A stretch of 64,000 nt of DNA from Deltaproteobacteria bacterium (GTDB lineage Bacteria > Desulfobacterota > Syntrophia > Syntrophales > Smithellaceae), in assembly GCA_022710585.1 (NCBI GenBank), contig JAKLGV010000018.1, forward strand, positions 1 through 64,000, read 5' to 3'. Positions 15,000 through 32,223 of the stretch are shown one piece after another. The notes under the pieces were generated by a model. The model did not search any database. It had not been told where the DNA came from and saw only the letters and a program-made list of their open reading frames with translations. The position numbers and the translations under genes are program-made. The number at the start of each line of letters is the position of its first letter. Position 1 is the stretch's first letter.

Positions 15000-16721
15000 T
15001 TATTTGGCCATCTTATTACTGATGAAGAGTTGCCGGAGTTTGTTTTTGTAATTGCTTGCGCGGTATGCTTTTAACCACCGGTTCACAATGGCACCCGCGT
15101 AGGTTCTAATAAACAGATTTCGCCATCTCCTTTTTATATCTTTCCAGGCATTCGCCAGCGGGACCTTAAAAATTGCGCGCAGGCTCCAATCCCCATACAG
15201 CAATTTTCCTGTCTGTTTCTTTTCCAGTAAATTACTTATAAAGCGCCGGACATAAAACTCGACAAACATGATGGGAAAGCCGATGGTGGCTATATAAGCC
15301 CAGTTTAGCCAATTGCCATAATTCAAATTTCTTCTAATGAAACCGCCAAGATACTTTTTTTTCATCAGTAAGGCCGGCATGTTTTGTAATGCAAATGCAT
15401 CCAGCCCATCCGGCCGGGGGTCGTAACAGAGAAAAAGTCCATCATACTTGTCCCATCCGACAACCGAAAGAGGCAGGAGTCGGCCTTCTCTCTCCAATCT
15501 TGCTCTAAGTTCGGAACCCGGAAGTGGAACGGCGTTAAGGACCTGGATGGTGTCGATGCCTGATTCTTTGAAAAACTCTTTATAATATTTAGCCCGCTGT
15601 CGGAGGGTGAATAAAGATTTCTCCTGCGCGTTTTTGTGCAGAGGATAACCGAAAATGAACATGCCATGCAGATAAAAATAGTTGGAAAGTTTTTTGGAAC
15701 GGGCAATTAATTTTTCCGCTGTGACGCCTTTGCGCATGGCCCGGAGTTCTTCGTTAATCGGACTTTCATAACCAATGGCCAGCATGCTGACACCGGCCTG
15801 GCACATCGCTTCGAGCAATTCGTCGTTTTCCGCCACTTCAGAGCGCACCTGAACGACTAAATCGATTTTTTCCCGGAATTGTCTTTTATAGTCGCTGATT
15901 TTCCGGCACAGTTCAATGGCTTCAGACGGATTCTGGGCAAAATTATCGTCGGTAAAAAAGAATGCTTTGTATCCCAAATCTGCATATTTGATGATCTGTC
16001 GCAAAGTTGTGGCAACCGATATTGATTTATATTTTCCATATTGCTTGTTGACGACACAGAATTCACAATTCCAGTTACAGCCCCGGCCACGGTTGATGGG
16101 AACAAAGCTCCATCTCTTTTTCAAGTACTTCACAAGAGTTAAATCGGGATCGGCTAATTCATTCAAATCAACAAGAGGGGGACGTGCACCGGTAAAAACA
16201 TATGTTCCGGCTTCGTCCAGGAAACTGATTCCCTTGACCTGAGCCAATGATGACCGGTTCAGGAAAACGCCTCTGTCGGCCAGCAATACGTTCAGCAGTT
16301 CCGCGAAAACTTCTTCCCCCTCCCCATGGACGACAATGTCAATACCGGATTGCAGCGCTTCCTGCGGCAGGGCATCGACATGGCTGCCGCCGGCAATCGT
16401 TATGGCGCCAAAATCCCTGTATTGCCGGACGACCGAAAACATGCGGGGAATTGAATTGCTCATACCGCCGTAAAACAATGCCAGCTGTGCGGGTTGCCTG
16501 GCCTGTAAAAAAGTATGATCCGGCAGGCCCGCGGAATCCTGAGGCCCCTTATAATTATTTTCATCAATAGCGTAGATTTCTTTAACCCGGCGATGATACT
16601 TGATTTGACTCATCACGGACAAAATCCCAACTGGCGGCATTTTTATCCTGGCGTAGATGTTTTGCTGCGAATTTTTCGGGTACTGCGGAATAATACCGAT
16701 AATGGTCAAATCTCTTTCCAT
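15000..16721 (-). CDS. B12-binding-type radical SAM protein
   Basis: A 573-residue protein. Residues about 1-145 resemble a cobalamin-binding (Rossmann) domain as in BchE/MiaB-like enzymes, with GGSHVDALPQ and HGEGEE, but without an obvious DxHxxG cobalamin ligand motif. The radical SAM CxxxCxxC cluster motif is C215/C219/C222. The C-terminal 120 residues are rich in basic and aromatic residues with one hydrophobic stretch (about 470-495), suggesting membrane association. Substrate unknown; lipid or hopanoid-like methylation or ring chemistry is a family-based guess. Composition is somewhat lower in GC than neighbours and it lies between tRNA-Arg and the duplicated tRNA end. Confidence 0.85.
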   Translation of the reverse strand: MERDLTIIGIIPQYPKNSQQNIYARIKMPPVGILSVMSQIKYHRRVKEIYAIDENNYKGPQDSAGLPDHTFLQARQPAQLALFYGGMSNSIPRMFSVVRQYRDFGAITIAGGSHVDALPQEALQSGIDIVVHGEGEEVFAELLNVLLADRGVFLNRSSLAQVKGISFLDEAGTYVFTGARPPLVDLNELADPDLTLVKYLKKRWSFVPINRGRGCNWNCEFCVVNKQYGKYKSISVATTLRQIIKYADLGYKAFFFTDDNFAQNPSEAIELCRKISDYKRQFREKIDLVVQVRSEVAENDELLEAMCQAGVSMLAIGYESPINEELRAMRKGVTAEKLIARSKKLSNYFYLHGMFIFGYPLHKNAQEKSLFTLRQRAKYYKEFFKESGIDTIQVLNAVPLPGSELRARLEREGRLLPLSVVGWDKYDGLFLCYDPRPDGLDAFALQNMPALLMKKKYLGGFIRRNLNYGNWLNWAYIATIGFPIMFVEFYVRRFISNLLEKKQTGKLLYGDWSLRAIFKVPLANAWKDIKRRWRNLFIRTYAGAIVNRWLKAYRASNYKNKLRQLFISNKMAK

Positions 16722-16918: not shown

Positions 16919-16947
16919 TTGATTTATTTGGTGCCCCTGGCGCGAGT
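16919..16947. repeat. tRNA-side copy of the direct repeat (att-like)
   Basis: The 29-base partner of 13822-13851; it comprises the 3' 19 bases of tRNA-Arg and 10 bases of flank. Confidence 0.55.
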
Positions 16948-17005
16948 CGAACGCGCGGCACACGGATTAGGAATCCGTTGCTCTATCCTACTGAGCTACA
17001 GGGGC
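16929..17005 (-). tRNA. tRNA-Arg (anticodon CCT)
   Basis: A 77-base cloverleaf read on the minus strand: acceptor GCCCCTG pairs with CAGGGGC, D-arm GCTC/GAGC, anticodon stem ACGGA/TCCGT with loop TTCCTAA (anticodon CCT, reading AGG), five-base variable region, T-arm GCGCG with TTCGACT loop, and an encoded CCA (16929-16931). All stems are intact. Confidence 0.96.
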
Positions 17006-17439: not shown

Positions 17440-17841
17440 CTACGAAACAGAATTCAACAATATCACTTTCACCCCTTTTTTCTTATACAAACAAAGATGG
17501 GGATCAACTGTATAAATGATCGTAGCGTTATATTGCATAAAGCCGGAGAGGATCAAAGCGTTGGACATATGAAGGCCTAGGCCGTGAGATAAATGAGCAG
17601 CTGTCATCAATATCTCCGCATTGTCGAGCCAGACAATAATACAAATATTCTTTATAGCGTCCAGCAAAGTATCAACGGAATAGTCGTCGATTGAACCTTT
17701 CAGAGCGAGTTTTTTCAACTCGTACAAAGAAATGCAGGAGACAATAGAGTCTTCGCCTTCCAGGATTTCGTTCCATATTTCTGCGGTTAGCTTGTTGCCT
17801 TTGATAAGCTCGATAAAAAAACCGGTATCAATACCTATCAT
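17440..17841 (-). CDS. PIN-domain protein, VapC-like toxin
   Basis: A 133-residue PIN fold: D5 in GIDTGFF, E41 in SLYEL, the third acidic position replaced by Asn (N94 in HMSNALIL, normally SDALI), and D113 in TVDPHL. PIN toxins cut RNA with these acidic residues holding Mg2+; the Asn could weaken or abolish activity. It overlaps the antitoxin gene by 14 bp, the classic antitoxin-first arrangement. Confidence 0.8.
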   Translation of the reverse strand: MIGIDTGFFIELIKGNKLTAEIWNEILEGEDSIVSCISLYELKKLALKGSIDDYSVDTLLDAIKNICIIVWLDNAEILMTAAHLSHGLGLHMSNALILSGFMQYNATIIYTVDPHLCLYKKKGVKVILLNSVS

Positions 17842-18064
17842 GCGACTTGGCCCTCATGGTCTCTATTTCTTTATGAATGTTTTTGGAAACACGCGCTTTG
17901 CCGATAAGACCTAAAACCTTTTTTCCGCTTTCCTTTTTCTTTTTCAGAAGAATATAATTCTGGACAGCATCTGTTATTACCGAGGATACAGATTTCTTTT
18001 CATTGTATGCGAAGGTTTTAACGACCCGTCCAATGTTGTCCGGAATATTTGCTGTGATTCTCAT
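17828..18064 (-). CDS. Ribbon-helix-helix-type antitoxin
   Basis: A 78-residue protein with an N-terminal RHH-like DNA-binding pattern (MRITANIPDNIGRVVKTFAYNE, then a helix pair SVSSVITDAVQNYI) and a basic C-terminal tail that would cover the toxin. AAGGAGATGG lies before the ATG. First gene of the toxin-antitoxin pair; it probably represses its own promoter. Confidence 0.75.
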   Translation of the reverse strand: MRITANIPDNIGRVVKTFAYNEKKSVSSVITDAVQNYILLKKKKESGKKVLGLIGKARVSKNIHKEIETMRAKSHDRY

Positions 18065-18184: not shown

Positions 18185-19636
18185 TTAATTTTGTTTCGGC
18201 TCGAATTGGTTTTTTGCCGACCAGAAAGACGGCAGATGGCGCAGCAAATACATCAGGCTTTTGCGATGTTCCCAGATGCGCCCGCGGAATCTGCCGCGCC
18301 ACGCCTTGTCGGAGTAAAAGCGCTTCACATGTTCGTTGTAGAGTTGATCAAGTTTTTCTTTGGAAGCGATTCCCTTGGGGACAAAAACAAAATTCAGGCA
18401 GTTCATCAGCCGCCAGTCTTCATGAAAAGTTCCTTCGTGTTTAATGGTTGCCCAGAGTGGCGCTCCGGGAAAGGGTGTAAATTTCGCCATGTTCATGTCG
18501 TCCAATCCCAGTGAGATGATAAAATCCGACGTCCGCCGGATGGATGCTTCCGTTTCGCCGGGCAGACCCATCATAAACAGCCCTTTGACGCGCAAACCGG
18601 ATTTCTGAATTCTTTGCACGGTGTCGCGCACCTCGTCAAGCGATACACCCGATTTGTGCCGGGCCAGCATATCCGGATCGGCCGATTCAATACCAAGAGA
18701 AACCATCAGACATCCGGCATCCTTGAGAAGCTTGAGCAAATCATCATCGGTGTAGCCCACGCGCACGGCACAGTTGAAATGAATGCCGAGAGGATGACGG
18801 TTAAGCTTTTCGCAAAGATCGACAATGCGCTGACGGTTGGCGGTAAACAGGTCATCATAGATATTGATATGCCTTACGCCGAATTTCTCCCGCAGATATT
18901 TCATGTGCTCATAAATGTAAGCGGCGGAATTATAGCGAAAACCTTTTTTAAAAACGGAACGGTCGCAATAGGAGCATTGATACATGCAGCCGCGCGAGGT
19001 GATCATCGTCGCGCCCGGTGTGTTGATATAGCTGAACAGTGGCAAATGGTAATCGCGGGGAAATCCTTTGAGCTTCTCATAAGCCGGAAACGGTAGGCTG
19101 TCCAGATCGGCTATTTTCGGACGCGGTTCGTTGGCGATGATTTCTCCCTTGTTGTCCCAGATCAGGCCTTTGATGGCAGCGGGCTCAAGGCAGGCGGCAA
19201 GCTCGGCGATGGTTTCTTCACCCTCTCCGGCAACCAGAAAATCAAACGCCGGATAATCTTTCAGAAGTTTATCTTCCAGCGCGGAAACATGAACGCCTCC
19301 GCAAACGGTTATCACATCGGGTGATTGTTTTTTAATTGATTGAGCAAGATCCGCGGCATCGGGAAAAGATGATGTTGTCGCCGAAAAGCCGACCATCTGC
19401 GGCTGATGGGCAAGAATTGCTCCGGTTTGTTTCTGCAAATCCAACGGTGCGTCCGGTCCTAGGCAATCATAAACAAAAACATCGTGGCCTTGTTTGATGA
19501 GATAGGCGGCGATGGAAAGCAGTCCCTGCGGCACCATCCGGTTGGCAATGTCGGTGATGTCGCGCTTACCGGGAAACCAGTTGAATCCGCGCGGGTGAAC
19601 CAGAACGACGCGCTTTTGTTGACGGGAAGTGGCCAT
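18185..19636 (-). CDS. B12-binding-domain radical SAM enzyme (lipid cluster)
   Basis: A 483-residue protein with an N-terminal cobalamin-binding-like domain (about 1-150, with VCGGVHVSAL and AGEGEETIAEL) and a radical SAM barrel with C217/C221/C224 (CxxxCxxC in RGCMYQCSYC). The family includes methyltransferases and cyclases acting on unactivated carbons (BchE, HpnP, P-methylases). The start lies 2 bases after the stop of the ketosynthase-like gene, so it is translationally coupled to the ACP/ketosynthase genes. A role in tailoring the acyl chain is inferred from this position. Confidence 0.88.
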   Translation of the reverse strand: MATSRQQKRVVLVHPRGFNWFPGKRDITDIANRMVPQGLLSIAAYLIKQGHDVFVYDCLGPDAPLDLQKQTGAILAHQPQMVGFSATTSSFPDAADLAQSIKKQSPDVITVCGGVHVSALEDKLLKDYPAFDFLVAGEGEETIAELAACLEPAAIKGLIWDNKGEIIANEPRPKIADLDSLPFPAYEKLKGFPRDYHLPLFSYINTPGATMITSRGCMYQCSYCDRSVFKKGFRYNSAAYIYEHMKYLREKFGVRHINIYDDLFTANRQRIVDLCEKLNRHPLGIHFNCAVRVGYTDDDLLKLLKDAGCLMVSLGIESADPDMLARHKSGVSLDEVRDTVQRIQKSGLRVKGLFMMGLPGETEASIRRTSDFIISLGLDDMNMAKFTPFPGAPLWATIKHEGTFHEDWRLMNCLNFVFVPKGIASKEKLDQLYNEHVKRFYSDKAWRGRFRGRIWEHRKSLMYLLRHLPSFWSAKNQFEPKQN

Positions 19637-19638
19637 AT

Positions 19639-20634
19639 TTATTTTGTTGAACCCAGAATAAGGGCCTGTCTGCCGGATATCTGGACGTTGTAATGCGCAA
19701 AAAGAGCGGACGGTTTTTCACGCAGGACGTGCGCTATCCCGAAGGCGGCGGCTGTGGAATGAATACCGCAGCATGGAAGATAATCATAAATGTTCCATCC
19801 TTTTTGTTCCCATAAATTGAAGTCGGTTTTTTTCACGCGGAATCCCGGTAAAAGAATACGGCTTCTCCCTCCGACGGCCTTCTCCCGCGGCACGCTGCCG
19901 GATAAACTGTTATTCAATTTTAAAATATCTTCCGGAATAATAATTTTCTCACCGGAATCTACGGCCAGAATCTTACCGATATTTTTGTTCTCATCCCGGC
20001 CCAGCAGCAGCCAGGAGCTGCCTTCGCCCATCGGAAGCTCACGGGAATTCTTGCAGCACAGATTCACCCTTTCGCGGTATTCTTCGACCGTCGGCGTAAA
20101 AATATCACAGCCGCCGACCAGCGCCAGCTCGATCTGACCGCTATCCAGATAGGTTTGCGCCAGCCAGAGCGCCGACTCGAAGGATAATTCTTCCTGGGAA
20201 ACGGTCAAAACGGTTCCCGTGACGTCACAGATGCGCGCCAGAACGAACGCGGCGGCGTTGCTGACTGAATTGGCGAATTGATTGGGGCTGGGAAATCCCC
20301 CGCCGTGTTTGAACACCTCGGTGATAAAAGGCAGTATTTCATCGACATTGCCCAATCCCGTCGCCAGAAAGATGCCTGTCTTTTTTCCCTTCAGATAGTC
20401 GAGCGACACCTGCTGCAGACAGGACAGACCACCGCACGCCACCATCTTGATGAATCGGCCGGCGCGTCGCATTGGCTGTCCCATAACTTCATGGACCAGC
20501 GCATCGGCATTCAGCGGCAGTTCGCTTTCCTCCCAGAGCGCGTCCCGATTGGGCATCAGCGAGGGGCCGATGTAGCTTGCCGCAATGACAGGCACGGGCG
20601 TTTGTGATTCGTTTTGTTTGTTATCTGAGTTCAT
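19639..20634 (-). CDS. Ketosynthase homologue lacking active-site Cys (CLF-like)
   Basis: A 331-residue thiolase-fold protein, about 60-80 residues shorter than a normal KAS-II. The nucleophile motif is changed: where TACSSS is expected it reads SQEELS, with Glu149 in the Cys position. The first catalytic His region (HGTGT) is absent and the region around GIHSTAAAFG may represent the last His motif. This is the pattern of chain-length factors, which pair with an active ketosynthase and set chain length. It lies directly downstream of the intact ketosynthase, 168 bp apart, and upstream of the radical SAM gene. Confidence 0.78.
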   Translation of the reverse strand: MNSDNKQNESQTPVPVIAASYIGPSLMPNRDALWEESELPLNADALVHEVMGQPMRRAGRFIKMVACGGLSCLQQVSLDYLKGKKTGIFLATGLGNVDEILPFITEVFKHGGGFPSPNQFANSVSNAAAFVLARICDVTGTVLTVSQEELSFESALWLAQTYLDSGQIELALVGGCDIFTPTVEEYRERVNLCCKNSRELPMGEGSSWLLLGRDENKNIGKILAVDSGEKIIIPEDILKLNNSLSGSVPREKAVGGRSRILLPGFRVKKTDFNLWEQKGWNIYDYLPCCGIHSTAAAFGIAHVLREKPSALFAHYNVQISGRQALILGSTK

Positions 20635-20771
20635 AATTTTTTATTTTCCAAAATCACAACTGAATAATTTGTGGATGATCAATTTACCTCTTTATTAAAA
20701 CTGTGCTTTCCGTGAGCATCAACAAATCCCCCTCTGTCCCCCTGATATGGGGAGGGGGGGAAGATCGTTAT

Positions 20772-20794
20772 TCCCTCCTTTTCTAAAGGAGGGA
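20772..20794. repeat. Intercistronic hairpin, 10-bp perfect stem
   Basis: TCCCTCCTTT (20772-20781), loop TCT, AAAGGAGGGA (20785-20794), 9 bases after the ketosynthase stop. On the plus strand it is followed by a T-run, but the genes here run on the minus strand, where it is preceded by As, so it would not act as a standard terminator for them. A C/G-rich imperfect palindrome (about 20728-20760) follows. Together they look like a REP-type intergenic element or an mRNA-processing hairpin. Confidence 0.5.
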
Positions 20795-20802
20795 GAATTT
20801 TT

Positions 20803-21963
20803 TCACTCCTTGATAATCAAATAACTTGTGCACGTCCCGCCAAAGCCGAAAAATGTAAACAAGTAAGCACCGTCCCGCGCTGCGACATTGACCTGAGACG
20901 GAGCGAATCCGATTTCGGGATCGATTTCCGTAAAGCCGAAACTGCGCGGAATCAATCCTTCTTCGCAGCAGGAAAGCCAGACGGCTGTTTCCACCGCCCC
21001 CGCCGCGCCCAGCGTATGTCCCACAGCGCCTTTAAGAGAAACGACGGGTGGAAGTTTCTCACCGAATAGTTTCGCCAGACCGCGTCCTTCAGAAAGATCG
21101 TTATCTCTCGTTCCCGTACCGTGCGCCTTGATCGCCGCGACATCCGCAGCGGAGATCCGGGCTGACGTCAACGTTTGCTCAACAACATTGCTGACGGTGA
21201 CTCCGTCCAGACCGGCAGACGTCATGCTCTTTATATCATTGTATAGATAGCCCCCGGTGAATCTGTATTTCGATGAAAAAGAATTTTTCGTCTCCAGAAC
21301 CACAACAGCGGCGCCTTCACCGATTTGCATGCCGGCGCGTGTCGCGCAAAACGGCCGGCACTGATCGTAGTCGAAAAGCAGCAGGCTGGCAAATCCATGC
21401 AGCGTCATATTCAGAAGCGGCTCAAATCCGACAATAATGGCGCGCCGGGATTTTTTTCTTGTTAAAAGATCGGCGGCAACGACCAGGGCGTGCGAACTCG
21501 AAACACAGGCCATGCTCAAGGTCAGCGACAGCCCGCGGATGCCGTATTGACTGGCAATGAAATCCGCCACTTCACCGGGCCCCCGGTTGCGGCATGATAT
21601 GGCCGGCGATTCCTTGCCGGGATTGCCGGCAACCGCTTCGGTGAATTCATACTCATTGCGGATGAAGAGACCGCCTGTCGTCCCCACAATTAAACATGAT
21701 TCGGCGATTTCTTCCGCGGAAAGACTGCCTCTACGGAACGCTTCCTGAAGAGCGCTCTCCAACATGGCCGTCGATTTTTCCAGAGGATTGCCCCGGGGGG
21801 AAACTTCAAACGCCTTGAAATCCCTGCTGGTCAAATGAGAAGACACGCCGGCCGTCGCGGGCGAAACGTTTCCGGCAATCAGTCGGCGCGCCGATTCGTC
21901 AGCGCTCCAGCCCAGCGTTGTCACCGCGCCCCAGCCGCGCACATAAATGTCTCCGTGGTTCAT
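20803..21963 (-). CDS. Beta-ketoacyl synthase (active, KAS-II type)
   Basis: A 386-residue condensing enzyme with the full triad: C153 (MACVSSS), H281 (AHGTGT) and H316 (GHTLGAAGA). It should elongate an ACP-bound acyl chain by decarboxylative condensation with malonyl-ACP. The ATG overlaps the ACP stop by 4 bp, so it is coupled to the carrier protein. It is not beside fabD/G/Z, which argues for a dedicated secondary pathway rather than housekeeping fatty-acid synthesis. Confidence 0.9.
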   Translation of the reverse strand: MNHGDIYVRGWGAVTTLGWSADESARRLIAGNVSPATAGVSSHLTSRDFKAFEVSPRGNPLEKSTAMLESALQEAFRRGSLSAEEIAESCLIVGTTGGLFIRNEYEFTEAVAGNPGKESPAISCRNRGPGEVADFIASQYGIRGLSLTLSMACVSSSHALVVAADLLTRKKSRRAIIVGFEPLLNMTLHGFASLLLFDYDQCRPFCATRAGMQIGEGAAVVVLETKNSFSSKYRFTGGYLYNDIKSMTSAGLDGVTVSNVVEQTLTSARISAADVAAIKAHGTGTRDNDLSEGRGLAKLFGEKLPPVVSLKGAVGHTLGAAGAVETAVWLSCCEEGLIPRSFGFTEIDPEIGFAPSQVNVAARDGAYLFTFFGFGGTCTSYLIIKE

Positions 21964-22271
21964 CTTTTAACCTTTGGCGCTTCAATAATGAAGTCGGCCA
22001 GCGAGTCGAACGACTTCATGGCCTTGGCCGCCGTCGAAGCGTTCTTTAATTCCACACCGAATTCGTATCGTATTTCCATGGCGATTTCCATGGCATCAAG
22101 ACTATCCAGGATCAGAGGACCGGGCCCGCCGATAAAAGGCACATCGGTGGGTACCTCTTCGGGCTTGACATCGGTAATTTCGCACGCCCTGATAATCAGT
22201 TCCTTGAGCTTGAAAATCAGCTCCTCCTTCGAAGATACATTCAACTCCTTCAACTTCTGGTTTACATCCAT
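21960..22271 (-). CDS. Acyl carrier protein
   Basis: A 103-residue ACP with the phosphopantetheine Ser57 in LDSLDAMEIAM. The N-terminus is about 20 residues longer than FabD-type ACPs, and FIGGPGPL precedes the Ser motif. Start set at 22271 where AGGAG lies 8 bases upstream; longer frames would extend into the permease. Its first 10 bases overlap the end of the ABC permease gene and its stop overlaps the ketosynthase start. It presumably carries the growing chain for the ketosynthase pair and donates it to the BtrH-like protein. Confidence 0.9.
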   Translation of the reverse strand: MDVNQKLKELNVSSKEELIFKLKELIIRACEITDVKPEEVPTDVPFIGGPGPLILDSLDAMEIAMEIRYEFGVELKNASTAAKAMKSFDSLADFIIEAPKVKR

Positions 22272-23383
22272 TTGACTCTCCTTCCCGCTATCAAGAAACA
22301 AGCCAGCGCGAAAAACAGCAAGACGGCCAGTTTCGGCAAGATGATATTAAGGTTTGCGTTGCGCAGAAAAACATCCAGGTAAGACTGATGCGCCCAGTAT
22401 ATCGGCGATATCATCGCCAGTTTCTGCATCAGGGGTGACATAACAAAGTGCGGCACCATGATGCCGCCCAGCACACCCATCAGAATCGCGCCGGATGCCG
22501 CGAGCGTTGACGTCTGCTCCAGCGTTTTAGCCAGCGTCGCGATCAGGACACCGAAGCCGGTGGTGGCTGCCGCCACAACCAGGGTGACCGGAATCAAATG
22601 CCAGGGGTGGGTTCCCGTTTGAAAAGGGGTGCCGATAAGGGAAGGCGCGATAAAAACGCCGACGAACAGCATCAACACAAACTGGATGATATTGATGATG
22701 TAATAAGGAATGATTTTACCAAGGGCGATGGCGTTGGGGCTTACCGCGTATGTAAAAAGACGCTGCAGGGTGCCGTCATTTTTTTCCTTCAGAAAACCGA
22801 TGGACATGGGGATGGCGATGAAAAACATCGCGAATATCGCGTAGGCCGGAACCGTTAGCTGAAGAGGGTTGGGAACAATCATGTCTTTCCTTGTTTTCTC
22901 TGTGATCAGGCCGGCAACCACGGCATCGATGTTTTCGATACCCATGACGACTTCGACGGTCAGGCTGGCCATCAGCGACCGGACGGCTACCTTGTACCCT
23001 GTGTCAAAGACGGGGTCGAAATAAATTTCGACAGGGCTGGTTCCTGTTTCAAAGCCCCCGGGAATCACCACCAGCACCTGTGCTTTGCCCTGTTCAAAAA
23101 TACGGTCTTTATCCACACCGGGAGGCAGCTCAACCCGTTTAATCAATTTATTTGACGTTATTTTTTGCTCCAGCAGGTTCGCTTTCGGCGTTTTGCTTTC
23201 GTTCTCGATCATCGTGGAAATTTGCTTTTCATAGATTTTGTCCGCGTAGACTCCCTTAAACGCCAGCGTCATGAAAAAGATCAGGGCCAGCGGCATTAAA
23301 AACAGAAGCAGAATCGTCTGCTTATCTCGCAGCATGATGTGCATTTCTTTTTTAACGATTTCGGACAACTGCCTTTTAATCAT
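22262..23383 (-). CDS. ABC-2 type permease (lipid cluster exporter)
   Basis: A 373-residue inner-membrane protein with one N-terminal TM (about 23-45), a large extracytoplasmic loop, and five to six TM segments from about 175 onward, the YhhJ/ABC2 layout. It overlaps the ATPase gene by 8 bp and the ACP gene by 10 bp, so it forms an exporter with the ATPase and is built together with the biosynthetic enzymes. It ends in RRVKWM, leaving the C-terminus cytoplasmic. Cargo is unknown; the product of the cluster is the natural candidate. Confidence 0.88.
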   Translation of the reverse strand: MIKRQLSEIVKKEMHIMLRDKQTILLLFLMPLALIFFMTLAFKGVYADKIYEKQISTMIENESKTPKANLLEQKITSNKLIKRVELPPGVDKDRIFEQGKAQVLVVIPGGFETGTSPVEIYFDPVFDTGYKVAVRSLMASLTVEVVMGIENIDAVVAGLITEKTRKDMIVPNPLQLTVPAYAIFAMFFIAIPMSIGFLKEKNDGTLQRLFTYAVSPNAIALGKIIPYYIINIIQFVLMLFVGVFIAPSLIGTPFQTGTHPWHLIPVTLVVAAATTGFGVLIATLAKTLEQTSTLAASGAILMGVLGGIMVPHFVMSPLMQKLAMISPIYWAHQSYLDVFLRNANLNIILPKLAVLLFFALACFLIAGRRVKWM

Positions 23384-24116
23384 CGCGCAATCCTCTCCCT
23401 GTCTTCTCCAAGAAGAATTTTTCCAGATTGTCTATCGCGGCCATCGGTCCGTCAAAAATAATTTCACCCTTGTCCAGCAGCGTCACGCTCGAGCACAGGC
23501 GCGCGGCCTCTTCCATCATATGTGTGGATAACAAAATCGTCATCCCCGATGCATTAAGATGGCTCAGCGTTTCGTAAATATGATTGCGGGTTTGCGGATC
23601 GACGCCCACCGTTGGTTCATCCAGGAGCAATAGTTTAGGCGAATGCAGCAGCGCCACGGCGAGATTGAGGCGTCGTTGCATCCCGCCTGAATACGTGGAA
23701 ACAAGTTTTTGGGCGTGATCGGTAAGGCCGGTCTGAGCCAGCACGGCATCTGATCTTGCCGCTATTTGGTCCTTGGAAAGATTCGCCATCACACCGAAGA
23801 AGTGCAGATTTTCTAGGGCGGTGAGAGACATGTAAAGCGCAATGGCCTGGGGCGCGCAACCGATGGATATCAAGGCCTTGTTATCAGGCATCTTGTTTCC
23901 CAGCACAAAAACGTCGCCCGCATACCCTCTTAAAACCCCGGTGATAATTTTCATCAGCGTGGTTTTGCCGGCGCCATTGGGCCCCAAAAGCGCATGAATT
24001 TTTCCCTGCTCGATGGACATGGAGAAATGATGCAGAGCATACCCGATTCCTCCTGCCGATTGGTCAGCAGATGAATGATAAGAAAAAGATATTTGGGAAA
24101 TTTCCAGAGCCTTCAT
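23376..24116 (-). CDS. ABC transporter ATPase (lipid cluster exporter)
   Basis: A 246-residue nucleotide-binding subunit: Walker A GPNGAGKTT, Q-loop in CAPQAIALY, signature YSGGMQRR, Walker B LLLLDEPT, H-loop STH. CcmA/DrrA type, typical partner of ABC-2 permeases. The ATG overlaps the BtrH-like stop by 4 bp and the gene overlaps the permease by 8 bp. Confidence 0.92.
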   Translation of the reverse strand: MKALEISQISFSYHSSADQSAGGIGYALHHFSMSIEQGKIHALLGPNGAGKTTLMKIITGVLRGYAGDVFVLGNKMPDNKALISIGCAPQAIALYMSLTALENLHFFGVMANLSKDQIAARSDAVLAQTGLTDHAQKLVSTYSGGMQRRLNLAVALLHSPKLLLLDEPTVGVDPQTRNHIYETLSHLNASGMTILLSTHMMEEAARLCSSVTLLDKGEIIFDGPMAAIDNLEKFFLEKTGRGLRDD

Positions 24117-25168
24117 GATTTCAGTGTAGCAACAGTATCCCGAAGATTTTTAAAAAGTTCCTCTTCCCGTCCCGCGCAGATCAGCATCAATCCACCCGCT
24201 TTGTCAAAGGTTTCTTCACGTTTTGATTTACGCTGTTTGATGATACGTGACGAGACCACGGCAAATTCACGCCAGATGTCGCCTATGGCCGTCATTTCAT
24301 CGGATAATTCACGGAGCACTTTAGATCCGAATAATTCCCCCGCTTCCTGTAGAAAAGCCGCGAACATATAGCGGAAGCCCGCGCCTCCCGTGCCCATTTC
24401 TTCCTGCATGCGCAGTATATGAGCGAGTTGCCGGCAGGCTTCAATATAACCCAGCTTTCCCGGCCATTGAATAACTTTCCGGGCAACATAACGCATACCC
24501 TTGATGCCGAAAAGCGGTATGGGGATTTTAAGCATCTGATTGCAGGAATCCGTCATGCCGGTGATGCAGGCCTTGCGAATGTCGGGATTGGACGGAATGA
24601 ATAATGGATAATACATCAGGCCGCGTGGTTCCAAGGGTCCTTTTGCAAAACGCGCCCTCTCCATCTCGAAAGCCGAGCAGTCTGTCGTGTATTCCAGCAA
24701 GGCCGGATCGCTGATGCGAAAACCGTTTTCATTTTCATATAAAACGATAAAATTATGTCCGTTAAAATTAAAGCGGTAACGTCTGGGAAAGAAGGAAAGC
24801 CAGTACACATTGGTGGTCACCCCGACAATCTGACCGGTCCGAATAACGCGGCGCAGTTCATCCATGCCTTTTTGAGGGCTGCGAAAACGCTTTCTAAAAA
24901 TCTTTGCGTCCAGTCTTTTGGCGGCTTTTTTAAAAACCAGTCCCGGAATCGACCTGAACGTGGTTATCGGCAATCCCGTCCATTTGATAAACGGCAGATG
25001 GCCGAAGAAAATACCACTGCCGATACCGAAAATCATCGGCTCGGAGATATCAAGCCCTTTATCGCGGAATAAGGCCGATGAGACGCCCGTTTCACAATGC
25101 GCTGCTGTACCATGGATATACTTTCTGCCATTGGCTAAAGTTTCTTCAGTCACGAATTCTTCCGTCAT
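24113..25168 (-). CDS. BtrH-like acyl-ACP acyltransferase
   Basis: A 351-residue protein with the BtrH N-terminal domain and the DUF4872-like C-terminal region. The likely nucleophile is Cys25 in AAHCETG, near the start as in BtrH; the GIGSGIFFGHLPF segment and VGVTTNVYWLSFFP (a conserved loop before a possible His/Asp of a papain-like fold) follow. Butirosin BtrH transfers an acyl group from ACP to an aminoglycoside amine. With an ACP four genes downstream, transfer of an ACP-bound chain to an amine or hydroxyl acceptor is the natural inference; the acceptor is unknown. Start preceded by AAAGG. Confidence 0.8.
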   Translation of the reverse strand: MTEEFVTEETLANGRKYIHGTAAHCETGVSSALFRDKGLDISEPMIFGIGSGIFFGHLPFIKWTGLPITTFRSIPGLVFKKAAKRLDAKIFRKRFRSPQKGMDELRRVIRTGQIVGVTTNVYWLSFFPRRYRFNFNGHNFIVLYENENGFRISDPALLEYTTDCSAFEMERARFAKGPLEPRGLMYYPLFIPSNPDIRKACITGMTDSCNQMLKIPIPLFGIKGMRYVARKVIQWPGKLGYIEACRQLAHILRMQEEMGTGGAGFRYMFAAFLQEAGELFGSKVLRELSDEMTAIGDIWREFAVVSSRIIKQRKSKREETFDKAGGLMLICAGREEELFKNLRDTVATLKS

Positions 25169-25176
25169 GAAGGGGA

Positions 25177-25593
25177 TTACCTTTCTTTTGGTTTTTGAGG
25201 CACGGTTTTTAATTCTTCTTTTGTAATCGCGAGAGCTGAAGCGTAGGCCTCCAGTAGAGAGGGTTTGAGGCGGGCAAATATTTCCGGACGTAAATGCCGC
25301 TTGACGCGGAAGGCGGCAATCCCCGCCGTCTTTCCCAGCAATTGAGGGATCATCTGCCGCAGTTCCATATAATAAGCGAGCGGACTTTTCTTGCCGGCAA
25401 GAACCTCTTTTCTGGTTTCTTCCAGTTTGTTTAGATATTCACTATAGGCAAGACCGTTGATTAATTCATCCACATCCCAGCCCTTGCTGGGCACCATAAC
25501 ATATTTTCCCTGTTCATCAAGGGCGTAATTTCCTTTTTTTATTCCCTGAGAATAATCGAATACATCATCCTGGGGGACATCATTCACTTTCAT
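25177..25593 (-). CDS. Uncharacterised protein of the lipid cluster
   Basis: A 138-residue soluble protein, no signal or membrane segment, no recognised family. N-terminal half is acidic with tyrosines (FDYSQGIKKGNYALDEQGKY), the C-terminal half is basic and helical. AGGAGTAATCC precedes the ATG. It ends 8 bases before the BtrH-like start and so is probably part of the same pathway, perhaps a small accessory or chaperone subunit. Confidence 0.6.
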   Translation of the reverse strand: MKVNDVPQDDVFDYSQGIKKGNYALDEQGKYVMVPSKGWDVDELINGLAYSEYLNKLEETRKEVLAGKKSPLAYYMELRQMIPQLLGKTAGIAAFRVKRHLRPEIFARLKPSLLEAYASALAITKEELKTVPQKPKER

Positions 25594-25700
25594 GGATTAC
25601 TCCTGCCTCATTTGATTATCAATTTGTGTTTTCTTATACTAAAATCGGCAAAGCTCAAAGTAAAAAGTAATGAGACCTGATTTCCCGAACAGAACTTCAT

Positions 25701-26579
25701 TTAATTGATTTTTTTGCCTAAAAACGGCTCGAAATGATGCCATTCGAAGGGATGACGGCGGGCGAAATCCGCCAGATCATTCGCATAGGTCTGCGCGGAA
25801 TCCTGCACCGCTTTTTTTCTGTCCGCGCGTGTGGCGGCAACCACCCGACGACCCGGCGAAACTTTAATATGATATTTACCGATTTTTTCCTGATAGACAA
25901 AAAATGTCATCAATGGCGCGCCGGTCATCAGCGCGAACAAGTGCGGTGTGTCCGGGAATCTGACTTCGTGTCCCAGGAAATCAACCGTGACAAAAGACTG
26001 TTCCCCCCAGAGGCGGTCGCCGGTCATCGAGACAATGCCGCCTTCACGCAGAAAATTGATTCCCTCGATCAAAGCAAAGGGCGATTTTTCATCCTCTGTG
26101 GTCACCATCACTTTGATGCCGCTTTGCGCGAGAATCTGTTTTTGAATATGCTCAATCTGCTCCTTGTGCTTGGCGCCCAGATAAAGCATGATCGGCAGGC
26201 CTTTTTTATTGAGTGTCTGCGCGGCCAGCTCCCAGTTGCCGATGTGCGACATCAGCAGAACAGCCCCCGTCTTTTTCTGCACCGCCTCCTCCAGATATTC
26301 CCAGCCTTGCTTGATATATTCAATATCCGATTCATCGAAGCGGATAAAACGGTGGATGTAAACGTCGGTGAATTTGTGATACTGACGCCACGCGCACCAC
26401 AGGTGAAAGAAAAATCCGTGCTGTGGAAACAGTGTACGGTAGAACTCGAAACTGTTGGCCACGCGCACCGGAAACAGAAAAAAATAACCCGTCGCGATAA
26501 ACCAGGAGAAGATGCGGAAAAACCACAACCCCAGCCCCCTGGTTAGATAAAGCAATATTTTATAAGGTAATTTATTCAT
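25701..26579 (-). CDS. LpxL/HtrB-type lysophospholipid acyltransferase
   Basis: A 292-residue membrane-anchored acyltransferase of the LPLAT/lipid A late acyltransferase family. One TM at about 20-40; catalytic HxxxxE as H112-E117 in SHIGNWE. LpxL homologues move an acyl chain from ACP to a lipid acceptor on the inner leaflet. In aryl-polyene-type clusters such an enzyme attaches the polyketide chain to a lipid; a similar role is inferred here. Gap of 107 bp to the next gene downstream. Confidence 0.85.
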   Translation of the reverse strand: MNKLPYKILLYLTRGLGLWFFRIFSWFIATGYFFLFPVRVANSFEFYRTLFPQHGFFFHLWCAWRQYHKFTDVYIHRFIRFDESDIEYIKQGWEYLEEAVQKKTGAVLLMSHIGNWELAAQTLNKKGLPIMLYLGAKHKEQIEHIQKQILAQSGIKVMVTTEDEKSPFALIEGINFLREGGIVSMTGDRLWGEQSFVTVDFLGHEVRFPDTPHLFALMTGAPLMTFFVYQEKIGKYHIKVSPGRRVVAATRADRKKAVQDSAQTYANDLADFARRHPFEWHHFEPFLGKKIN

Positions 26580-26654
26580 ACATCTTTGTCTCGAAAGCGG
26601 GAAGCCAGTTTTATTTCAACACGAGCCAAGCAAAGCCTTGCCCTTTTTTAATTT

Positions 26655-27815
26655 TTAATGATGAAACCCGACCCAGTTGCCATCCCATCGTGCATTGAGA
26701 ACCAATGGATCGTCTGATTTATACCAGTAATCTTCTATGAAGGGGTCGAATTCAACTTTTTGAATGAAACATATATCGGGATGACTGCTGTCCATCGCCA
26801 CGCAATCGCATTGGTTTCCCTTGTGATTCTGATCATTCGGATCCATAAAGTACAGCACCTTCCCGGCATCATCATATCCGATCACCAGGATATAATGGCC
26901 GGAAGAAGGAACCCCGAGGACAGGCGATCGCCAGAGGTGCACCAGCACGGGAGCGCCGCTATTTAAAAAAGGAACGATTCGACTTAGAAAAATATTTCGT
27001 TTTTGTTCAGAAATGTCATCTCCCGTTCCGGTGAGGTCTTCGTCGGAATTATCCGTCATTACTTTGCCATATAACGCATGGCTACCGGACTCATCCAGAA
27101 GGCCTTCAGCGGCGGGCACCAGCGAGGAGAGGCGGATGCCCGGCATGCTATTGAACTGATCATCGATATATTCAAGATATGTCGCTATTTGTGATGTTGC
27201 TGACAGTTCATGGGGATAATAAATTTGATCCGTGAGTTTCGACGGACAATCTTTGTCAACAATTCCGGTTTTGATATTTTTTAGATGATCGCCGTAATAT
27301 TTCATGGTCATGTAAAAACATGTTGCCGCGCACAATCCTGCTTCCTGCGAGACATAGTAGGAGGACGGATTTTTCTTGATGGTCTCGTACGGATGCTGTC
27401 GAACTATGTTTTCGGTGATAACGACCAGGGAAAGGTCCTGTGTGTCGGAGCCCGCGGCGTCTTTGACCCCAACGGTAACCTGAAATACCCCCGGAGCCAC
27501 CGATGTGGTACCGGCAATACGGCCGGAAGAGGAAAGGGTGAGGCCCGTGGGCAAAGATCCTTTCGTGATGGAGAATATTTTCGTGCCGTCGCCGCCGGTA
27601 ACGCTGATCTGCTGGCTGTATGCGTGACCAACCAGACAGGAAGGCAATGACGTCGTGGTAATCCTGGGCGACGAGTCAGAAGGAGCACCGGATGAATCAG
27701 ACCCGGATGAACCGGAGCAATCGGTGAGTAAAATACCCATCAACAACAAGGCAATGCCGCAACATACGCCAAAACTTTTTTTCATTTTCTTATCCAGCCC
27801 TCTGATCTTCTTCAT
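26655..27815 (-). CDS. C39-like peptidase with Ig-like domain, secreted
   Basis: A 386-residue exported protein. Signal segment about 12-32 ends at L-T-D-C (Cys33); Asp at -1 makes lipidation uncertain. A Ser/Gly-rich linker, a putative Ig (He_PIG-like) domain at about 50-132 (SLPTGLTLSSSGRIAGTTS), then a papain-fold domain with Cys161 (EAGLCAATC), His306 (SSGHYILVIGY) and Asp324 (MDPND), as in the C39 peptidase-like family. It would act in the periplasm or at the outer membrane. It interrupts the biosynthetic cluster by position but is transcribed in the same direction; GGAG lies 8 bases before the start used. Cleavage substrate unknown. Confidence 0.78.
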   Translation of the reverse strand: MKKIRGLDKKMKKSFGVCCGIALLLMGILLTDCSGSSGSDSSGAPSDSSPRITTTSLPSCLVGHAYSQQISVTGGDGTKIFSITKGSLPTGLTLSSSGRIAGTTSVAPGVFQVTVGVKDAAGSDTQDLSLVVITENIVRQHPYETIKKNPSSYYVSQEAGLCAATCFYMTMKYYGDHLKNIKTGIVDKDCPSKLTDQIYYPHELSATSQIATYLEYIDDQFNSMPGIRLSSLVPAAEGLLDESGSHALYGKVMTDNSDEDLTGTGDDISEQKRNIFLSRIVPFLNSGAPVLVHLWRSPVLGVPSSGHYILVIGYDDAGKVLYFMDPNDQNHKGNQCDCVAMDSSHPDICFIQKVEFDPFIEDYWYKSDDPLVLNARWDGNWVGFHH

Positions 27816-27915
27816 CGCATTTCTCCATTGATCCGGTCATTTCTGGAACAAGACAGCATTCTTCATGATTTGTTTATCCGTCAAGACTCCTGCTTTGGAT
27901 AATGCATATACCAGA

Positions 27916-30900
27916 TTAAAGTTTCCTGCCAAGAAACCATTTTTCTTCTATACCTTTCATGTCGGAGGCGAAGACTTGGACGACGAAGCCCGCTTGCTTC
28001 ATGAAATCAGCAACTTCTATCTCTGAGCGAAACCGGTTGGGGATGCCGGTTATTTTTAATCGGATTTCCTCTATCCGGCGCTTCCAGGGATTGGGCTTGT
28101 CTGATGGGACGGTTGCCCGCACAATGAATGTTCCGTCATCGGAAAGTTTTTCGAAAATCCGCTGGAAAACAATTCGGACGTCCTTGTCGCTGACATAATG
28201 CAGCATGTCCAGCATGAGAACATGATCGACTTGACCTTCAACCTGCGGTAGGTCGGGCGCGCGTCCGACTTCCACGCTGCCGCGATTGCCGATGACACGC
28301 GAAGCGATCAGCACGCGTTCTTCATCCGGCTCGATGCCGAATACCTGAGCCTGCGGATAAATTTCCAGCAGCCAGGTAGCCGGCACGCCGAAGCCGCAGC
28401 CGATGTCAATCATCCTGCGGGGATTTTTAACATACTTGTCCAGTTCCTTGAACATCGGATCCATCATCATTTTCATCCGGGCAAAAACACGCGGATAAGC
28501 CGGCAGATGGCGGTAGCGCAGAACTGTCCGGCGCAGATGTCCTTTTGAACCGATATCAAATGGACCTGTTGGATATTGAACCGGCGCAAAGATCTTTTCC
28601 ATCAGTACCGGCAGGATAAAGAAAACACCGATCAGGGAATAAGTGATTCCTAAAGAAGAAACCACGCCGATGCTCTTTAACAGAGCGTGATCAGCCAGCG
28701 CCAGAACGCCGAAGCCGATCAAGGTGGTCAGCGCCGCCAGGAATATCGCGAGTTTGATCGTGTGCATGGCCGGACGCTTTTCATCGAAGTGACGCTGGTA
28801 ATGGCAAATGTAATAAACCGCATAATCATCTCCCATGCCCATGATGATGATCCAGAGCATGATACCGGGAATATCCAGCGGATGGCCGATGATTTTCATG
28901 GTGCCCAGCGTTGCAAATAGCGCGAAGACAATCGGCGCCAGCACGGCAAGCGTTAACTGCCAGTCCAGAAAATATATAAAGGTGACAAGCACCAGTCCGA
29001 TGCTGACGATGATTGCGATTTCCAGAAAAAGATTTTTCAGAAAATCGCCCAGCCGCTTGTTGAATAAATCGGCGTCGAATATTTTGGCCAGACCGCTTCG
29101 GGAAATCCGTCCGAAGAAATCTTCCGCACTGTAATTTTTCCCGGTGGACAGCAGACTCAATTGCGTGTAGCCGGCGGGGCTTTTTGCAATGCCCAGCATT
29201 TCAAAGTGCTTTTCCGGAATGTCGAAGAGGGCCGTACTTTCCCGATTCACAATGCTCCAGAAAGGATCAAAGGCATCGGGCGCAAAACCGTTTTCCCGGG
29301 CCGCCGCGTCCAGATCACGCTTGAAAGCAGTCAGACGGTCTTTAGTCCAGAAAGCGTTCCAGGCGGCAAAATGCTTTTGCGCCGTTTCCGGTGATGGAAA
29401 CAGAACCGTCGGCAGAAAAGGAGTAGATAATTTTTCATCCCGCACATCAGCGGCCAGCCAGCCGGCCAGTTGATCATTTTTTTTCCGGAGCTGTGTCATA
29501 TCGGATGCTTCCAGAAAAACATAGCATCGGCCGGAGAAATTGCCCCACACGTCCTGCATTTTTCTGTCGGCGCTTTTGGTTGCTTCGCTCATGGAATTCA
29601 TCGAATTCATATCCACATTGAAAACCGGCTTGGCAAAAAAGAGCATCGCCAAACCGAAAATAATCGCAGCAATCAATTTCCACTTCGCGGGAGCTGCAAA
29701 TTCTTTGACGGCATTGAGCAGCCATGGGTTGCCCGGTTTTGTCGCCGGCGGCATGGCTGGGAATATCTTTGGAAACACAAGATGGACAAACAGCAAGGCG
29801 AAGGCGACGCCCAGGGCCGAAAAGACGCCGATTTGCGCCAGAATCTTGAAATCGCTGATGAGCAGAAGCAGAAACGAGCCCACCGTGGTCAGAACGGCCA
29901 GAAACTCCGCCGACCACACTTCCCGCGCCACATCTTTTCCGTAAGTGGCATGGTGCTGATCCAGAAAAAGCAGGTAGGCGATGCCCAGGTCAACGGTAAA
30001 GGCCATAATCGCGCTGCCGAAACCGACAGCGATGATCGACATGGATTTGAATAAAAAAGAACAGACAAAAAGAGCGGCAATCGCGCCGACAGACGAAGGC
30101 AGCAGCGCCAGCAGACCGATGAGCGGACGGGGAAAGGCGACAATGAGCAAGAGAGCGATGCCCAGGGTGGTGAAGGTCACGGCCATCTGCATATCGTTCT
30201 TTGCGATGGTTTCGTTATCCAGAGCCACGCGGTAAGCGCCTGTTGCTGTGAGTTTATATTGATCACCATTTACGGCCAGATCTCTCCGGCAATCTTCCAG
30301 AAGTTTTTCGATTTTTGCCGCCGTTCCCGTATCCGTTCCGGAGCCTTTGATCCGGGCGATGATCAACGCGTATTTGCCGTCCGCGGAAATCAACTGCCCC
30401 TGATAAAACTGCGCCTTGTTGGCCGGAAGCAGCGCGGACATCTGCTTGAGAATGACGCCGGAAAATCCCAGCGGGTCTCTGGAGATCATCTCGGCGCGGC
30501 CGATTCCTTCAAGCTGTTCCAGACTCTGCCGGTTTTGCGCCATTGCTTCTCTGATTTTGTCCGGCGTCAGGAGCGGCGCGATTTCTTGTTCCAGATTATC
30601 AGCGCTTAAAAGCGCGGGCAGGTTGTTGTTGACATGCGCTACAAGTTCGGGAAAAGTCTGCGCGTCATCCCCAATGCCGACTCTGGAGAAAAGACCGCTT
30701 TGACCGAGCTTATCTGAAATTTTCGCCGCCGTGTTGACTAGCCGGTCGCGATCCGGAAATGTCTGTTCAAGATTAATGAATACCTTATCCTGAACGGGCA
30801 GATGCTTGACAATGAGGCGCGCGTCGGCGAGGACCGGATCCTTGTGCGGCATGGATTCCAGAATATCCGTTTCGATTTTAAGATTTTTGGATTCCCAGAA

Positions 30901-30972
30901 AGACAGTCCCGCCACGATCATCGCGACGATGAAAATAATGGACCATCTTATTTGATATCTGCTGAATAACAT
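27916..30972 (-). CDS. MMPL-family RND exporter fused to a SAM methyltransferase
   Basis: 1018 residues. Residues 1-about 790 are an MMPL/HpnN-like lipid exporter: TM1 (about 12-30), a periplasmic loop, six TMs with the D-containing TM4 motif (GFGSAIMAFTVDLGIAY), a second loop and a second TM set (MGMGDDYAVYYICHY). Residues about 850-1018 are a class I methyltransferase: motif I DIGCGFG (856-862), acidic GIEPDEE, and LDMLHYVSD. MMPL proteins and a separate methyltransferase both occur in aryl-polyene clusters; here they are one chain, with the methyltransferase cytoplasmic. It is the first gene of the lipid cluster (GGAGCG before the ATG). Confidence 0.88.
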   Translation of the reverse strand: MLFSRYQIRWSIIFIVAMIVAGLSFWESKNLKIETDILESMPHKDPVLADARLIVKHLPVQDKVFINLEQTFPDRDRLVNTAAKISDKLGQSGLFSRVGIGDDAQTFPELVAHVNNNLPALLSADNLEQEIAPLLTPDKIREAMAQNRQSLEQLEGIGRAEMISRDPLGFSGVILKQMSALLPANKAQFYQGQLISADGKYALIIARIKGSGTDTGTAAKIEKLLEDCRRDLAVNGDQYKLTATGAYRVALDNETIAKNDMQMAVTFTTLGIALLLIVAFPRPLIGLLALLPSSVGAIAALFVCSFLFKSMSIIAVGFGSAIMAFTVDLGIAYLLFLDQHHATYGKDVAREVWSAEFLAVLTTVGSFLLLLISDFKILAQIGVFSALGVAFALLFVHLVFPKIFPAMPPATKPGNPWLLNAVKEFAAPAKWKLIAAIIFGLAMLFFAKPVFNVDMNSMNSMSEATKSADRKMQDVWGNFSGRCYVFLEASDMTQLRKKNDQLAGWLAADVRDEKLSTPFLPTVLFPSPETAQKHFAAWNAFWTKDRLTAFKRDLDAAARENGFAPDAFDPFWSIVNRESTALFDIPEKHFEMLGIAKSPAGYTQLSLLSTGKNYSAEDFFGRISRSGLAKIFDADLFNKRLGDFLKNLFLEIAIIVSIGLVLVTFIYFLDWQLTLAVLAPIVFALFATLGTMKIIGHPLDIPGIMLWIIIMGMGDDYAVYYICHYQRHFDEKRPAMHTIKLAIFLAALTTLIGFGVLALADHALLKSIGVVSSLGITYSLIGVFFILPVLMEKIFAPVQYPTGPFDIGSKGHLRRTVLRYRHLPAYPRVFARMKMMMDPMFKELDKYVKNPRRMIDIGCGFGVPATWLLEIYPQAQVFGIEPDEERVLIASRVIGNRGSVEVGRAPDLPQVEGQVDHVLMLDMLHYVSDKDVRIVFQRIFEKLSDDGTFIVRATVPSDKPNPWKRRIEEIRLKITGIPNRFRSEIEVADFMKQAGFVVQVFASDMKGIEEKWFLGRKL

Positions 30973-31035: not shown

Positions 31036-32223
31036 TCATGCTCTCTCGGGATTCAAAACAGGTGCTTTCTGCCTTTTCAAAATAAAAAAACCGATGGTTC
31101 CCGCAAAAAATGATCCGACCAGAATGCTGATTTTCGAACTCTGAATAATTTCATTATTACTAAACGCCAGTAATGTTATAAAAATGGACATGGTAAATCC
31201 GATGCCGCCCAAAAAGCCTGCGCCGATGATGTGTCCCAAAAACAAATCAGAAGGTAATTTTGACAATCCAAGTTTTATGGCCAATACGCTGAACAAAACA
31301 ATCCCCAGCGGCTTGCCGAGCAGCAAGCCGGCCATGATGCCCAGGCTGTTGGATGTGCTCAAATTTTCAATCAGGTTTCCTCCCAGCACAACACCGGTAT
31401 TGGCCAGCGCAAAAAGCGGCATAATGATAAAGGCAACCGGTTTATGCAAAAAATGCTGCAGCTTGTAAGATGGTGATTTTTCATCGCCTCCGGCAAACGG
31501 AACGGCAAAGGCCAGGAGCACGCCCGCAATGGTGGCGTGAACACCGGATTTGAGCATGCAGTACCACATGATGAATCCCGGGATGAGATAAAAGAGCAGC
31601 CGATGCACATGCAGGCGATTCAAAACCAGCATGCCTGCGAATATCGCCGATGCCAGCACAAGGTATAAAAGCGAGAAATCGCGCGAATAGAAAAGCGCGA
31701 TCACAACAATTGAGCCCAGATCATCGATAATTGCCAGTGCGGCAAGAAATATTTTCAGCGACAAGGGAACTTTGCTGCCCAATAGCGCGAGCACGCCAAG
31801 CGCAAACGCAATATCCGTAGCCATCGGAATACCCATGCCGGCCTGTGTTTCCGTTCCGTGATTGAGCATAAAGTGGATCAGCGCCGGCACGGCCATGCCT
31901 CCCAGAGCGGCACAGAAGGGTAATGTTGCGTTTTGCAGATTGGAAAGCTCCCCGATATAAAGTTCCCTTTCAATCTCCAGTCCGATCAGCAGGAAGAAGA
32001 TGACCATCAATCCTTCATTGATCACATGTTCCAGACTGAAGCGGAGGGAAAGCAGATTGCCAATCTCAAACCCGATTTTTGTGTGCCAGAACTCCAAGTA
32101 AGCATTTCCCAAAAAAGAATTGGCCATGACCAGGGAAATCATCATACAGAAAATTAAAATGATGCCCGAAGCCTGTTCGGTTTCAAAAAATTCTATAAAT
32201 AGTTTTGTCAATCTGTTGATCAT
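31036..32223 (-). CDS. nhaA: Na+/H+ antiporter NhaA
   Basis: A 395-residue, 12-TM antiporter that expels Na+ in exchange for protons. Family marks are clear: ATDIAFALGVLALLG, and AIIDDLGSIVVIALFY with the two Asp residues equivalent to D163/D164 of E. coli NhaA. N-terminal helix LTKLFIEFFETEQASGIILI is typical. It is divergent from the potassium transporter gene across 274 bp, which suggests joint ion homeostasis. Confidence 0.95.
   Translation of the reverse strand: MINRLTKLFIEFFETEQASGIILIFCMMISLVMANSFLGNAYLEFWHTKIGFEIGNLLSLRFSLEHVINEGLMVIFFLLIGLEIERELYIGELSNLQNATLPFCAALGGMAVPALIHFMLNHGTETQAGMGIPMATDIAFALGVLALLGSKVPLSLKIFLAALAIIDDLGSIVVIALFYSRDFSLLYLVLASAIFAGMLVLNRLHVHRLLFYLIPGFIMWYCMLKSGVHATIAGVLLAFAVPFAGGDEKSPSYKLQHFLHKPVAFIIMPLFALANTGVVLGGNLIENLSTSNSLGIMAGLLLGKPLGIVLFSVLAIKLGLSKLPSDLFLGHIIGAGFLGGIGFTMSIFITLLAFSNNEIIQSSKISILVGSFFAGTIGFFILKRQKAPVLNPERA

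Follow-up and report, generated by a model that had tools for sequence, protein, structure and literature searches.

The window, that is, the whole stretch of 64,000 nucleotides analyzed here (positions 1 to 64,000 of contig JAKLGV010000018.1, assembly GCA_022710585.1, family Smithellaceae), carries on its reverse strand an operon spanning positions 25593 to 18185. In this operon, DarG- and DarH-family genes are followed by genes for an ABC transporter ATPase, an ABC-2 permease, an acyl carrier protein (ACP), a ketosynthase (KS), a CLF-like ketosynthase partner, and a B12-binding radical SAM enzyme. Genes for an LpxL-type acyltransferase and an MMPL–methyltransferase fusion (MMPL-MT) lie just upstream of the operon. 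We confirmed the gene set and coordinates of the initial annotation, which had omitted the DarG-family gene, a conserved member encoding 138 aa. The features are as follows:

18185–19636, minus strand: B12-binding radical SAM enzyme with a CxxxCxxC motif (PF04055, PF02310)
19639–20634, minus strand: CLF-like ketosynthase partner, Cys-less (PF00109, weak, 7e-4; active-site alignment)
20803–21963, minus strand: active beta-ketoacyl-ACP synthase (PF00109/PF02801; C153/H281/H316; ApeO match, E 4.6e-30)
about 21960–22268, minus strand: ACP with a DSL motif (PF00550, 1.4e-4; ApeE match, E 2.7e-11)
22262–23383, minus strand: ABC-2 exporter permease (PF12698, 5e-28)
23376–24116, minus strand: ABC exporter ATPase, DrrA-like (PF00005, 3e-31; TIGR01188, 214 bits, below cut-off)
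24113–25168, minus strand: DarH, predicted BtrH-related papain-like cysteine acyltransferase (NF053550; fold; candidate triad Cys25-His138-Asp154)
25177–25593, minus strand: DarG-family small protein, predicted Cro/CI-type helix-turn-helix (NF053536; structure model; Foldseek)
25701–26579, minus strand: LpxL-type lysophospholipid acyltransferase with an HX4E motif (PF03279, 1.2e-19; ApeJ match)
26655–27815, minus strand: lipoprotein with Ig-like and C39-like peptidase domains (PF05345, PF13529)
27916–30972, minus strand: MMPL-family (RND) exporter fused to a C-terminal SAM methyltransferase (PF03176, PF13649; ApeM match, E 2.4e-21)

Within the operon, the DarH (BtrH-like) and ATPase genes overlap by 4 bp, ATPase and permease by 8 bp, permease and ACP by 7 bp, and ACP and KS by 4 bp, and gaps of 8, 168, and 2 bp separate DarG from DarH, KS from CLF, and CLF from the radical SAM gene, respectively. 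The lipoprotein gene between MMPL-MT and LpxL had no visible counterpart in the family loci of relatives and probably lies outside the conserved system. Upstream of MMPL-MT, positions 31036–32223 encode a protein named by eye as an NhaA-type Na+/H+ antiporter, a homologue of which lies between MMPL and LpxL in one relative (G003); a Na+/H+ antiporter is also among the arcuflavin cluster genes (PMC3949708). Just downstream of the operon, a small gene pair at 17440–18064 resembles, by eye, a VapBC-type PIN toxin–antitoxin, after which comes a tRNA-Arg (16929–17005). A further B12/radical SAM gene (15000–16721, 573 aa) is about 25% identical to that of the operon; in family relatives, it was never seen adjoining the cassette. 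The radical SAM gene of the operon itself accompanies the cassette across the family, where the copies adjoining CLF are 79–89% identical, and two other families of the order have homologues with 62–69% identity close to DarG/DarH.

We found that the gene order DarG–DarH–ATPase–permease–ACP–KS–CLF is that of known dar operons, and DarH exceeded the equivalog cut-off of NCBIfam NF053550 (387 bits; cut-off, 300). The combination of a BtrH-like protein, ABC export, and KS/CLF/ACP, which the initial annotation did not recognize, is therefore not new. The same order occurs in Chitinophaga pinensis and a Pseudomonadota MAG and, apart from some additional genes, in Flavobacterium, and the matching genes in the arcuflavin dar cluster of Azoarcus sp. 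BH72 are named darD, E, F, I, C, J, and K (PMC3949708). The NCBIfam families of DarG and DarH were themselves defined in dialkylresorcinol/flexirubin clusters. In the flexirubin and arcuflavin dar loci compared, DarA and DarB are encoded directly upstream of the cassette; DarA is an aromatase and DarB a ring-forming ketosynthase, and together they make the dialkylresorcinol. In contrast to these operons, the window lacks DarA and DarB, has a radical SAM gene at the 3' end, and has MMPL-MT and LpxL directly upstream, and the window's relatives in the Smithella family differ further by tandem DarG–DarH pairs. The NF005293 profile detected no DarB in the whole genome, DarB is likewise absent from the close relatives G004, G008, G009, and G010 (estimated completeness, 98–100%), and a protein search found no DarA in the genome or anywhere in the Smithella family. 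Two KASIII-like genes were rejected as DarB, one being fab-type (contig C11) and the other OleA-like (contig C9). The absence of DarA and DarB argues against a dialkylresorcinol as acceptor in the source organism.

The structural model of DarH points to its mode of action. The AlphaFold2 model (pLDDT 94) aligned over nearly its whole length with CtaG (Z 24.5, 3.4 Å, 297 residues), a closthioamide synthesis protein that acts as a cysteine acyltransferase on carrier-bound acyl groups, and also with AziU3 (Z 24.8) and CcbD (Z 21.5), the latter having also been solved with a carrier protein domain. Residues Cys25, His138, and Asp154 were invariant across 48 homologues, and a profile alignment placed His138 and Asp154 onto H128 and D144 of CtaG with an identical 16-residue spacing. 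The papain-like fold, C-terminal helical domain, and Cys-His-Asp triad of BtrH/CtaG-type proteins are thus all found in DarH. CtaG (closthioamide), CcbD (celesticetin), and BtrH (butirosin) share the full-length fold (Z 21–25) and the triad with DarH, but sequence identity is only 8–13%, and DarH, unlike them, accompanies a KS/CLF/ACP set and an exporter. A PDB search with the single DarH sequence gave no match, and a plasmid search returned only distant BtrH proteins (Acinetobacter and actinomycetes). BtrH is an ACP:aminoglycoside acyltransferase (PMC10318531). Judging from its modeled structure, DarH may take the acyl group of the operon ACP onto Cys25 and then pass it to an acceptor. Flexirubin consists of a polyene acid esterified with a dialkylresorcinol (PMC3992019), so the natural acceptor of DarH in flexirubin producers would be a resorcinol hydroxyl. 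The CtaG/CcbD-type match offers DarH, a flexirubin-cluster protein, a concrete testable mechanism. DarG scored above the cut-off of the NF053536 subfamily (128 bits; cut-off, 70) and below that of a flexirubin-specific model (115 bits; cut-off, 170). Its structural model (pLDDT 83) matched Cro/CI-type folds in Foldseek (probability 1.00, although the best E value was only 0.011), and the modeled fold suggests that DarG may be a binding partner or regulator.

The order MMPL-MT, LpxL, one to three DarG–DarH pairs, ATPase, permease, ACP, KS, CLF, and radical SAM gene is that of the family as a whole. DarH was present in 50 of 99 related genomes, including most of the family, and its closest homologues among named contigs (86–87% identity) were from Smithella sp. 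and Syntrophaceae MAGs; the MMPL-MT fusion was found in every intact family copy. The initial annotation had proposed conservation elsewhere as a check, and this family-wide synteny strongly favors a dedicated pathway and rules out a chance assembly of unrelated genes. In one relative (G006, L038:11718–14927), genes for a carbamoyltransferase, an alpha/beta hydrolase, and a PEMT-like methyltransferase lie between MMPL-MT and LpxL, which suggests lineage-specific tailoring.

In many relatives, the locus continues upstream with genes for a radical SAM enzyme, an aromatic amino-acid lyase, a 4HBT thioesterase, a FakA/DegV fatty-acid-kinase fusion, and a GT2 glycosyltransferase. The nearest relative (G016) carries both halves in one stretch. 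With the exception of one genome that is 71% complete, all family genomes searched have the lyase; it shares a contig with the cassette, within about 16 kb, in 14 family genomes. In the source genome, the two halves are unlinked: the intact lyase operon is on contig C9 (about 33–38.6 kb), followed at 42–44.6 kb by a second KS/CLF pair that is similar to ApeR/ApeO. The C9 lyase scored 431 bits against a tyrosine-lyase model, 418 against HutH, and 297 against the flexirubin FlxA, all below cut-off; its substrate may be Tyr, Phe, or His. No ApeH-type ligase was seen in the two halves of the source genome. The C9 kinase is a FakA (Dak2)–DegV fusion inside the lyase operon (L193:13679–15400), in which there is no acyl ligase, and this kinase might convert the aryl acid to an activated acyl phosphate. 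Beside the aryl operon, C9 also carries, at about 46–55 kb (L061:6024–14863), genes for a KS, an ACP, an amine-oxidase/desaturase-like protein, OleA- to OleD-like proteins (the OleD-like one being a 3-beta-HSD), and a desaturase-like protein; this cluster, which is conserved in G016, resembles a pathway for long-chain olefins.

We compared the two halves with aryl polyene clusters, for which gene functions have been described in apeA-R of E. coli CFT073 (PMC8253772). The operon KS retained the triad Cys153, His281, and His316 in the active-site alignment, and CLF had Glu, a gap, and Cys or another residue at the aligned catalytic positions, a pattern shared by relatives; a KS with an inactive CLF partner and a dedicated ACP is also an aryl polyene cluster trait. 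The window LpxL aligned with residues 358–545 of E. coli ApeJ (E 8e-15), the C9 GT2 aligned with residues 8–232 of the same protein, and the C9 thioesterase matched ApeK. By sequence, LpxL and GT2 correspond to the C-terminal and N-terminal halves of ApeJ, and MMPL-MT corresponds to ApeM plus a methyltransferase. The matches to ApeJ and ApeM mark LpxL and MMPL, which flank the cassette upstream, as aryl-polyene-type attachment and export genes, and since LpxL and GT2 correspond to one E. coli protein, the window half is tied to the C9 half. Counting the GT2 and thioesterase on C9, the MMPL exporter, glycosyltransferase/acyltransferase, and thioesterase of aryl polyene clusters (ApeM, two-part ApeJ, and ApeK) are all represented.

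Taken gene by gene, the Smithella family cluster has ApeM, ApeJ (split), ApeK, ApeE, ApeO, an inactive KS partner, and a methyltransferase in common with the CFT073 cluster, whereas ApeH ligase, LolA, ketoreductase, and dehydratase are lacking in the loci examined. It has the lyase and FakA/DegV kinase instead, its methyltransferase is fused to MMPL, and the DarG/DarH/ABC cassette is added. No dedicated ketoreductase or dehydratase was found in the family cluster loci, and an ApeI-like dehydratase match in the source genome was marginal (28.6 against 28.5 bits). In G053, from another family of the order, an FlxB-like SDR reductase (305 against 340 bits) and a LolA2-flexirubin-like protein (77 against 125 bits), both under cut-off, are encoded beside the lyase operon. 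The earlier statement that ketoreductase, dehydratase, adenylation, and thioesterase genes are missing holds within the cluster, but the genome does have thioesterase and aryl-starter genes in another place. The aryl-polyene-like logic that the initial annotation had proposed is borne out by the ape gene matches, and its scheme of a chain built on ACP, transferred by the BtrH-like protein to an acceptor, and exported is supported by the dar gene order, the CtaG/CcbD fold, and the same ape matches.

DarH sequences of the family fell into three clades (names coined here), and the source genome carries clade II only. Clade I, which is the remainder of the family tree rather than one clean branch, was represented in 20 of 20 DarB-bearing family genomes of the tree, and all 8 genomes without clade I DarH lacked DarB (p = 0.0004 over the family and 0.015 within the genus), although the latter genomes may stem from one loss. 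This pattern hints at different acceptors for the different types of DarH. The immediate neighbor of DarB was DarA in 62 loci and a B12-type radical SAM gene in 14, never both; as the DarA loci are mostly from Bacteroidota, these counts are not independent. Such radical SAM genes beside DarB occurred in relatives' loci L167–L175, L177–L180, and L118 (e.g., L167:10035–11363), and in anaerobes the encoded enzyme may stand in for the DarA aromatase.

Based on these results, we consider it likely that the window genes encode one half of a lipid pathway of the aryl-polyene/flexirubin type in Syntrophaceae (Smithella group), with DarH transferring the chain to something other than a dialkylresorcinol. 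The DarG–DarH–ABC–ACP–KS–CLF module is known; its anaerobic version, free of DarA and DarB and accompanied by a B12 radical SAM enzyme, is new. In the proposed scheme, the aromatic lyase would make an aryl-acrylic acid, and KS/CLF pairs with ACP would extend a chain, relying on reducing and dehydrating enzymes encoded at other sites of the genome. The cassette KS/CLF may build either the aryl chain or a second acyl chain. DarH Cys25 would accept the acyl group from ACP and hand it over to an acceptor with a hydroxyl or amine. Anchoring to a lipid would fall to GT2 and the LpxL-type enzyme and tailoring to the radical SAM enzyme and methyltransferase, after which the ABC and MMPL exporters would carry the product to the envelope.

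Alternatively, the cassette could build an ordinary non-aryl acyl chain, attached by DarH to an amine or hydroxyl, with the lyase operon belonging to a separate neighboring pathway. The two halves are indeed on different contigs in the source genome, C. pinensis has no lyase within 10 kb on either side of its dar cassette, and the aryl chain could be built by the other KS/CLF pair, the ApeR/ApeO-like one on C9. We nevertheless regard this explanation as unlikely, because the halves adjoin in 14 family genomes and LpxL and GT2 correspond to the single E. coli protein ApeJ. A true dialkylresorcinol/flexirubin pathway, with the resorcinol formed by an unrecognized enzyme such as the radical SAM enzyme plus another ketosynthase, would fit a cassette that equals a dar operon minus DarA and DarB, and in relatives a B12 radical SAM gene does take the place of DarA beside DarB. 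However, the source genome and G004, G008, G009, and G010 all lack DarB, and the DarB-bearing family genomes in the tree all have the clade I DarH that is absent here, which makes this pathway quite improbable. Finally, the split of the operon across contigs and the lipoprotein gene intervening between MMPL-MT and LpxL might be taken as signs of a degenerate remnant that no longer works in the source genome, but we give this little credence, as all genes are intact, the catalytic residues and overlapping gene structure are kept, and the C9 half is likewise intact.

Beyond the preferred reading of an aryl-polyene/flexirubin-type pathway with a non-resorcinol acceptor, we tentatively suggest, with somewhat less than even confidence, that the dar-type cassette is a portable module for loading, extension, transfer, and export that is separable from resorcinol synthesis, with DarH esterifying or amidating a non-resorcinol acceptor with an aryl-derived chain tailored by the B12 radical SAM enzyme. 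Pigment lipids of the aryl polyene and flexirubin types are widespread and known chiefly from aerobic and facultative bacteria. In E. coli, aryl polyenes guard against oxidative stress (PMC8253772). A search for literature on aryl polyenes together with Smithella, with most subscription journals outside its coverage, found nothing relevant. If the portable-module reading is true, the product would represent an aryl lipid class so far undescribed from strict anaerobes. A version that lacks the resorcinol enzymes and is shared across a family of methanogenic syntrophs would separate the function of the DarG–DarH–ABC–KS/CLF module from resorcinol chemistry, and its B12 radical SAM enzymes would suggest tailoring reactions of an anaerobic kind.
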